NCBI RefSeq assembly: GCF_014203705.1
Contig: NZ_JACHJR010000001.1
Location: 310,001-374,000 of the forward strand
Direction: 5' to 3'
Source of the DNA: Kitasatospora gansuensis
GTDB taxonomy: Bacteria > Actinomycetota > Actinomycetes > Streptomycetales > Streptomycetaceae
DNA length: 64,000 nucleotides
The notes beneath the pieces are model-generated. The model was given only the letters and a program-made list of their open reading frames with translations. It ran no database searches and had not been told where the DNA came from. A program made the position numbers and the translations under genes. This document shows, piece by piece, positions 37,091-38,662 of this stretch (position 1 is the first letter of the stretch; each line of letters begins with the position of its first letter).

Positions 37091-38662
37091 ATGGCACTGG
37101 AGTTACCTTCGGAATTGACGTTCGTACTGAAACTCCTCGGGGTGAACTGGCCCCAGGCGAACGAGGACGAGCTGACCAGACTCGCCGACCAGCTGGACAA
37201 GCTGGCCTCGGCCATCGACTCCACCCAGATGGCGGCCGACAAAGCGCTCGCCAAGCTGGGTGAGGTCTATCACGGAGAGTCCGCCGACAAACTGGCGGAG
37301 CTGTGGAGCACGATCTCCAAGTACTCCAGCATGGTGGTGGACGTCCTGGGCGTCGCCTCCACCGGGATCAAGGCCGCCGCTCTGGTGATCCAGATATGCA
37401 AGGGTCAGGCCCTGGTCCAACTGATCAACATTCAGGCCCAGTTGGCGGCTTCCTCGGCCACCTTCGGGCTGAGCACGCCCGCCATCATCGCGGCCGGCAA
37501 GGTCGTCATGTCCGAGATCCTGGACGAGGCGGTCTCCCGGCTCGCCCACGAGCTGGCCAAGCCGATCGCCGACCTGGCGGACGCGGTGGTCGCGAAGGTG
37601 CTGCCCAGCGGCTCCGGGAGCGGCAGCGCGGGTCAGGGCTTCGGTGTCGACGTGGCGGCGATGGCCCAGTGCGCGCTGGACATCCGGAAGCACTCGGACG
37701 ACGTGGACAGCGCGGGCAGTTCGTTCCGCCGGGTGGTCGAGAGCCTGGACGTCGGCAAGCCCGGTGACGCGTTCGGCAAGCTGGCCATCGCCGTCGCCGA
37801 GCAGGTCGCCAAGACCGTCGGCATGGACGTACTCACCCGGATCCTCAACTCGTTCCGCGGCACCGCCGACAAGATGGACACGGTGGTCCGCAACCTGAGC
37901 GAGAACGAGGACACCCACACCCAGCAGATGAACGGCGGCATGGCGCTGCTGGGCACTTCATTCGGCAAGGGGCCGACCGGCCCCACCCAACTGGCGGGTG
38001 GAGCCGGCGGCGCCGGGGGCGGCGGTCACCGCGACCCCGGCATGGCGGCATTCGACTCGCTACGCCCCAACCTCGGTGGCGGCGGTGGCGGCGGTGGCGG
38101 CAAGCTCGGCGGCAAGCTCGGTTCGGGCGGACACGAAGGCTTCGACAGCGCGCTCAACGTCCTCGGTGGAATGAGCGGCGGAAAGCTGCACCCGAATACG
38201 GGCCTGCCCGTGGGGAACCACGGGGAAGGAGAAGCCAATCACGTAAACGCCGCGGGCCAGCAGCAGTTCGGCCAGCCGACCGGCCTGGGCCGCGTCTCCA
38301 ACCATAACGGGAGCAATGGGGTGCTCTCCCGGAAGGATGTCGAATCCGGCGGCGGTCATGCGGGATCGGAACAGCGCGGTGTTGGCGGCCAGCCGGTCTC
38401 GCAGGTCCCCGGAATGCTCAATCAGGTCCAGCACGGTCAGGGAGGCCGCGGCAATCACGGGGGCCAGGGAGTTGGAGAAAAGGTACGGTCGGCTGCGCTG
38501 TCGCAGCAGCGCAACAATCTCCGCTCGCGCCGCGACGTACCCCCCGGAGGCCCCACCGAGCGCCTTGCCGAGGGTCCCGGTGATGATGTCGACACGGTCC
38601 ATGACTCCGTGCAGCTCGGGCGTACCGCGCCCACCGTCGCCGATGAACCCGACGGCATGTGA
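37091..38662 (+). CDS. WXG100/CpnT-N-like protein, probable type VII substrate
   Basis: A 523-residue protein beginning MALELPSELTFVLKLLGVNWPQANE, the form typical of large actinomycete proteins related to the N-terminal domain of the mycobacterial toxin CpnT, exported by type VII secretion. Residues about 20-300 are helical with a hydrophobic segment (GIKAAALVIQICKGQALVQL); from about 300 a glycine-rich low-complexity tail begins. The ATG at 37091 has GGGGGG eight bases upstream. The last 603 bp lie antisense to kbl; either the tail is truly dual-coding or the gene has lost its original 3' end. No esx or ecc genes are in the window. Confidence 0.75.
   Translation: MALELPSELTFVLKLLGVNWPQANEDELTRLADQLDKLASAIDSTQMAADKALAKLGEVYHGESADKLAELWSTISKYSSMVVDVLGVASTGIKAAALVIQICKGQALVQLINIQAQLAASSATFGLSTPAIIAAGKVVMSEILDEAVSRLAHELAKPIADLADAVVAKVLPSGSGSGSAGQGFGVDVAAMAQCALDIRKHSDDVDSAGSSFRRVVESLDVGKPGDAFGKLAIAVAEQVAKTVGMDVLTRILNSFRGTADKMDTVVRNLSENEDTHTQQMNGGMALLGTSFGKGPTGPTQLAGGAGGAGGGGHRDPGMAAFDSLRPNLGGGGGGGGGKLGGKLGSGGHEGFDSALNVLGGMSGGKLHPNTGLPVGNHGEGEANHVNAAGQQQFGQPTGLGRVSNHNGSNGVLSRKDVESGGGHAGSEQRGVGGQPVSQVPGMLNQVQHGQGGRGNHGGQGVGEKVRSAALSQQRNNLRSRRDVPPGGPTERLAEGPGDDVDTVHDSVQLGRTAPTVADEPDGM

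Follow-up and report, generated by a model that had tools for sequence, protein, structure and literature searches.

With good confidence, a 603-bp antisense overlap in Kitasatospora gansuensis can be regarded as genuine dual-coding DNA, in which a WXG100-like gene has recruited the strand opposite the last 200 kbl codons as a C-terminal tail. This reading is based on comparative sequence analysis. Both strands are likely to make protein, judged from free-standing copies of the tail in other Kitasatospora genomes, and the origin of the tail is very likely an antisense overprinting of kbl. The features of the locus are listed in Table 1; positions refer to the window, i.e. the whole analysed stretch of 64,000 nt. 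The overlap had been described in an initial annotation of this DNA and was recovered as described: kbl, on the minus strand, ends at 38060, the plus frame ends at 38662, and the stretch from 38060 to 38662 is common to both. The phase is also as given there, with kbl third positions opposite plus-gene first positions, and plus codons and kbl codons are reverse complements of each other.

Table 1 Features of the overlapping gene pair in the window
Feature	Position	Strand	Remarks
WXG100-like (CpnT-N-terminal-like) gene	37091..38662	+	523 aa, ATG; PF25547 WXG100_2 E 9.7e-8, family alignment A1
Alternative GTG start of the WXG100-like gene	37031	+	would give 543 aa
Helical N-domain, residues 1-290, outside kbl	37091..37960	+	comparison with Root107; helices modelled, low confidence
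Gly-rich linker, ending at the kbl stop	37961..38059	+	fastest-changing part, window vs Root107
Antisense-kbl-derived tail, 200 codons and stop, dual-coding stretch of the WXG100-like gene	38060..38662	+	codon and homology comparisons
Plus-gene stop TGA, identical with kbl Ser codon TCA and with the kbl codon-usage change point	38660..38662	+	
kbl, 2-amino-3-ketobutyrate CoA ligase, 412 aa, GTG start	38060..39298	-	Aminotran_1_2; 7v58 E 5e-162, 1fc4 E 8.6e-161
Lys codon of kbl TLGKALGG, within the overlap	38564..38566	-	translation; aligned in 7v58
About 15 extra C-terminal kbl codons reading into the Gly-rich linker	38063..38107	-	kbl length comparison

That kbl is a genuine gene, as stated in the initial annotation, is evident from its Pfam and solved-structure matches, which are typical of KBL. 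Residues 9-392 of the protein align to structure 7v58 with the TLGKALGG motif retained, consistent with a full-length PLP enzyme fold and the family motifs, and this full-length match covers conserved sequence on both sides of the overlap boundary. The lysine of the motif is presumably the PLP lysine. The tdh gene is located beside kbl on the minus strand of the window. For comparison, 35 kbl loci were collected, from which two duplicates were removed, leaving 33 distinct Kitasatospora genes (2 overlapping, 31 not). The overlapping genes encode proteins of 412 and 408 aa, the 31 others proteins of 395-400 aa. In one relative (G035, contig 13, 186499-187717), kbl is found in two pieces in different frames and is thus broken or misassembled.

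The WXG100-like gene matches PF25547 (WXG100_2) with 32.6 bits, above the curated cut-off of 27. Its start is more likely ATG 37091 than GTG 37031: the ATG matches the family start MAxELPSEL in alignment A1 (26 rows; P0001, P0016, P0019, P0020 and others were left out of this alignment and of the profiles), and GGGGGG is found 8 bases upstream. A C-terminal toxin domain as in mycobacterial CpnT is absent, the sole Pfam match of the plus protein being the N-terminal domain.

The codon-usage shift of kbl, first noticed in hand counts, holds for the complete gene. Third-position G+C (G+C3) is 98.1% in the 212 codons outside and 78.6% in the 201 codons inside the overlap; in bins of 30 codons it is 97, 97, 100, 100, 100, 97 and 97% outside, followed by 80, 80, 83, 80, 77, 70 and 83% inside. 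Codons ending in A or T account for 41/184 in the aligned part of the overlap versus 4/212 outside (Fisher p 3e-11). In the window, the best change point is kbl codon index 212 (support interval 190-212), with a log-likelihood gain of 21.8 versus a permutation maximum of 11.4; in Root107, it is index 211 (202-211), with a gain of 22.1 versus a maximum of 7.8 (500 permutations each). In both species, the change-point codon is TCA, the reverse complement of the plus-gene TGA stop. This Ser codon is TCA in both overlapping kbl genes, and TCG (30/31) or TCC (1/31) in the others. The same bias in kbl genes that lack an overlapping gene, named beforehand as an observation that would speak against dual coding, was not found: G+C3 is 93.5-100% in 31/31 of them, and 77.7% and 79.9% in the overlapping two. 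Among the 33 distinct genes, the shift is restricted to the window and Root107 (G072, L061). Read in the plus frame, first-position G+C is 93-98% in three ordinary antisense kbl and 79-81% in the two overlapping tails.

Such an abrupt boundary resembles a recombination junction, where the 3' half of kbl would have been swapped in from a foreign donor of lower G+C3 and the antisense gene would be incidental. This is highly improbable, given that the boundary coincides with the antisense stop in the window as well as in Root107 and that the A/T-ending codons persist between the two (see below). A foreign donor of the kbl half was rejected separately: apart from Root107, the closest sequences in 394 family genomes come from other Kitasatospora (up to 89%), and overlap-half matches from other genera reach at most 87% among the matches listed.

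The antisense frame is free of stops in 30 of the 31 non-overlapping Kitasatospora kbl genes, and the remaining one contains a single TCA. An open antisense frame alone is therefore little evidence of coding, because stops require TTA, CTA or TCA in kbl, which are absent in 30/31. A second antisense ORF (205 aa, 38882-39499, plus strand) is found in the same phase over the 5' half of kbl; an ORF of this kind is expected by chance, and the kbl codon shift is absent opposite to it. The default openness of the frame suits an accidental origin, in which kbl lost its 3'-half bias for another reason, the antisense frame is open by chance and translation into kbl is a harmless read-on. Such an origin is difficult to reconcile with a change point that lies on the stop codon in the window and in Root107 alike, and the comparison of these two also argues against it.

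Root107 carries the same arrangement, with a plus frame that is intact through the overlap and a one-codon deletion in kbl relative to the window. Of the A/T-ending kbl codons, 34/44 inside the overlap are common to both species versus 1/10 outside (Fisher p 1.4e-4); in control pairs of similar divergence, 90/537 are shared (74 pairs pooled, which share lineages and hence depend on each other). Silent kbl changes are restricted as well. They affect Gly, Arg or Ala codons in 12/13 cases inside the overlap, in 7/14 outside and in 705/1310 in the controls (binomial p 0.004 versus controls, p 0.03 inside versus outside), and most of those inside swap Ser, Ala, Thr, Pro or Gly in the tail. A BLOSUM test of the silent kbl changes in the overlap gave a null result (p 0.34, n=13). 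A depressed synonymous rate of kbl in the overlap, suggested beforehand as a mark of constraint, was not significant (ratio 0.91, control mean 1.23, SD 0.32), and the undepressed dS is a point in favour of harmless read-on. On balance, an accidental overlap with relaxed codon usage is improbable.

Over the final 540 tail bases, substitutions between the window and Root107 number 14, 1 and 4 at plus-frame positions 1, 2 and 3, respectively. Since 14/19 thus lie on kbl wobble positions, kbl is the dominant frame. The N-domain has 93.4% amino acid identity between the two (dN 0.042, dS 0.155), and the dN/dS of the tail is near 1 (0.045/0.047), where dS of the tail is set by kbl. As expected of an antisense overprinted gene, the overlap of the two opposite-strand frames is long and non-trivial (603 bp in the window, with an equivalent arrangement in Root107), and constraint on the younger frame as protein is indicated by codon persistence, the stop position and detached in-frame tails, while the dS and BLOSUM tests were not significant. 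The earlier proposal that kbl wobble positions are constrained by the opposite frame is accordingly backed by comparative evidence, the strongest part being the antisense-kbl-derived tails of homologues away from kbl. The wobble of kbl was probably re-chosen in the overlap, because these positions are the first codon positions of the tail.

A full-length match of the WXG100-like protein on kbl is found in 2/70 Kitasatospora genomes only, the window and Root107. Strong N-domain matches are present at 28 places (E 3e-66 or better), of which only these two adjoin kbl. The most informative detached gene is that of K. atroaurantiaca (G030, protein P0003), which is located about 200 kb from an intact kbl of its own and has 58% identity to the window protein over residues 1-541. 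The kbl gene of this genome is in its usual position beside a LysR gene and an oxidoreductase gene. The opposite strand of the P0003 tail is a kbl relic with 47% identity, one stop and a Glu that replaces the TLGKALGG lysine. The relic scores 319 and 317 versus the two overlapping KBLs and at most 291 versus the 31 others. Similarly, the P0003 tail scores 384 against the window tail, versus a mean of 216 and a maximum of 261 for the 31 antisense ordinary kbl and a mean of 53 and a maximum of 96 for 105 antisense slices of other genes. The window tail differs from the antisense-kbl consensus at 80 positions; of these, P0003 has the window residue at 34, the consensus residue at 16 and neither at 30 (32, 17 and 32 when aligned through the consensus). 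The stop of P0003 is at the position that matches the stop of the window tail. An in-frame tail with the same stop in a gene distant from kbl is a further point against an accidental read-on. In a tree with the 31 antisense kbl, the tails of the window, Root107, P0002 and P0003 form a clade with support 100, on long branches.

First-position G+C of the detached G030 tail in the plus frame is 83%. A return to high third-position G+C was not seen in this tail (76.5%; N-domain 88.3%). At the A/T-ending codon positions, P0003 matches the window in 8 cases and the consensus in 9, and much of the shift may therefore postdate the split. In the tree of the kbl 5' half, G030 is not sister to the window.

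To cover the remaining family, an HMM of antisense kbl was built without the two overlapping species. It matches eight detached tails (P0002, P0003, P0007, P0006, P0010, P0009, P0008 and P0011) with E 1e-25 to 2e-3, the best control among 105 antisense slices and reversed tails being 0.019; the signals are weaker in the six tails beyond P0002 and P0003. When the antisense-kbl profile was compared with a profile of eight tails that did not include P0002 and P0003, E was 6e-8, and control profiles (antisense kbl 5' half, antisense tdh) gave 0.6 or worse against the same eight-tail profile. No significant antisense-kbl signal was found in P0005, P0012, P0014, P0015, P0017, P0019 and P0022, which are located inside or beside the kbl-tailed group, and loss or strong divergence must therefore be assumed for them. 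The N-domain tree, from which P0001, P0016 and P0020 were left out, is compatible with one origin and groups P0005 with the window (support 0.85). A kbl origin of the tail of the whole family is unsupported, as the Gly-rich tails of deeper relatives have no match to antisense kbl in the profiles. The window tail weakly resembles tails of the P0004/P0013 type (E 2e-5, probability 52), which may be due to convergence or composition.

The detached tails have a pN/pS of 0.88-0.91 versus 0.27-0.34 in the N-domain and no third-position excess, i.e. their point changes are near-neutral, which again suits harmless read-on. It is the reading frame that is retained: gaps among the detached and window tails are multiples of three in 14/14 cases (window/G030, G030b/G081 and G024/G081), a count that includes end gaps and stems from three pairs that are not independent.

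The structure model of the tail has a mean pLDDT of 42 and predicts it to be unfolded except for a helix at residues 463-476; it is a hint only, and the predicted disorder is likewise in line with an accidental tail. The tail may be a mostly disordered extension of a putative type VII-like secreted or surface protein, where export is suggested by the family name only. A motif in the region of the predicted helix (approximately GxxVRxAAxxQQR, window residues ~458-476) is repeated in kbl-derived tails; P0004 and P0013, which are without a kbl signal, have a looser version of it. It is a candidate functional motif or a convergence.

As to a broken frame in relatives, anticipated as an argument against dual coding, the records differ. 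The frame is intact in Root107, but record P0001, identical in residues 2-285, exits it before the overlap. The exit is located in the Gly-rich linker (37961-38059), the ending is a peptide from another frame of the same DNA, and the protein stops after 352 aa, short of most of the overlap. This could be a true loss or a sequencing error; if the frameshift is real, that strain can do without the tail.

The gene between kbl and the LysR-oxidoreductase block varies by species (G030 L065, G014 L069, G026 L070, G085 L068), which marks a turnover spot. In G030 and G085 it is presumably a small cold-shock-like ORF, and in G026 there is almost no gap between kbl and the block.

Regarding the order of events, the antisense strand of kbl is the somewhat favoured cradle of the tail: overprinting would have been followed by long dual coding, wobble retuning and departure of the tail to free-standing genes, with the two species as a living intermediate. 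The WXG100-like gene may have been placed tail to tail with kbl, with a junction between its Gly-rich linker and the kbl 3' end. This junction would have added about 15 codons to kbl and the antisense frame as a tail to the plus gene. Selection on the tail would then have retuned the kbl wobble positions, and the TGA would have emerged at kbl Ser codon 212. A copy of the tailed gene may later have been relocated or transferred; the detached copy would thus derive from the overlap by duplication or transfer.

The main rival is a capture in the reverse order, in which an inverted kbl fragment became the tail of a WXG100-like gene elsewhere and the gene then recombined via this tail into kbl of the ancestor of the two species. 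In this scenario, the tail would have originated away from kbl, although the present overlap would be dual-coding all the same. P0005 of K. camelliae, the closest relative of the window gene by N-domain, is indeed located away from kbl, the kbl C-terminus extends into the linker, and the LysR-oxidoreductase block beside kbl is kept in 4/4 examined relatives without the gene, which argues that the gene reached kbl from elsewhere. Against this, the detached relic is strongly decayed as kbl (47%, dead) and the window kbl is intact, with 86-89% identity in the overlap half, so that the landing would have to be very early; moreover, the relic is nearest to the overlapping kbl genes. Capture before landing is hence considered rather unlikely, and the preferred reading is the origin of the tail on kbl itself.

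Bacterial antisense overlapping genes usually have little evolutionary evidence behind them and are hard to accept for this reason. The present case offers overlapping species, non-overlapping relatives and detached descendants for joint comparison, which makes the order, cost and outcome of overprinting testable. The codon choice of a core metabolic gene can evidently be bent by a second frame. Among 28 protein-search matches, neither of the overlapping WXG100-like proteins (window 37091-38662, Root107 L061) has a full-length record, which suggests that gene callers omit such genes and that gene catalogues may miss antisense overlapping genes. This is consistent with the exclusion of long overlaps by Prodigal, as described in the accessible part of the source (PMC7457138). 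A literature search, with most subscription journals outside its reach, returned, among the papers listed, no overprinted bacterial tail with detached descendants and no report on kbl.

Within the family, the closest known proteins are the Kitasatospora WXG100_2 or CpnT-N-terminal-like proteins (PF25547), with which the N-domain is homologous over residues 1-322 (nearest detached relatives 59-64%); deeper WXG100_2 relatives, unlike the window protein, have Gly-rich tails without an antisense-kbl signal. Mycobacterial CpnT combines a channel with a C-terminal toxin, whereas the C-terminus of the window protein is antisense-kbl-derived and predicted to be unfolded. Compared to ordinary KBL, the window kbl has a full-length match, and in both overlapping kbl the C-terminus is 8-17 residues longer and the codon usage of the 3' half is shifted. 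In the same family, Streptomycetaceae, dmdR1/adm of S. coelicolor is likewise an antiparallel overlapping pair, though of different genes; phenotypes are reported for both knock-outs in work cited in the accessible part of PMC5810103. In E. coli O157:H7, antisense overlapping genes with expression evidence are described in the accessible parts of three reports: pop/ompA (PMC7103648), nog1/citC (PMC4683798) and laoB (PMC5810103). Each is a protein frame antisense to an older annotated gene, as in the window, and pop also has 603 bp. According to these parts, pop, nog1 and laoB are embedded genes backed by expression and phenotype data, whereas the window overlap forms the tail of a longer gene and its evidence is comparative. 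What sets the window overlap apart from pop, nog1 and laoB, as far as they are covered there, is the presence of detached descendants of its tail.
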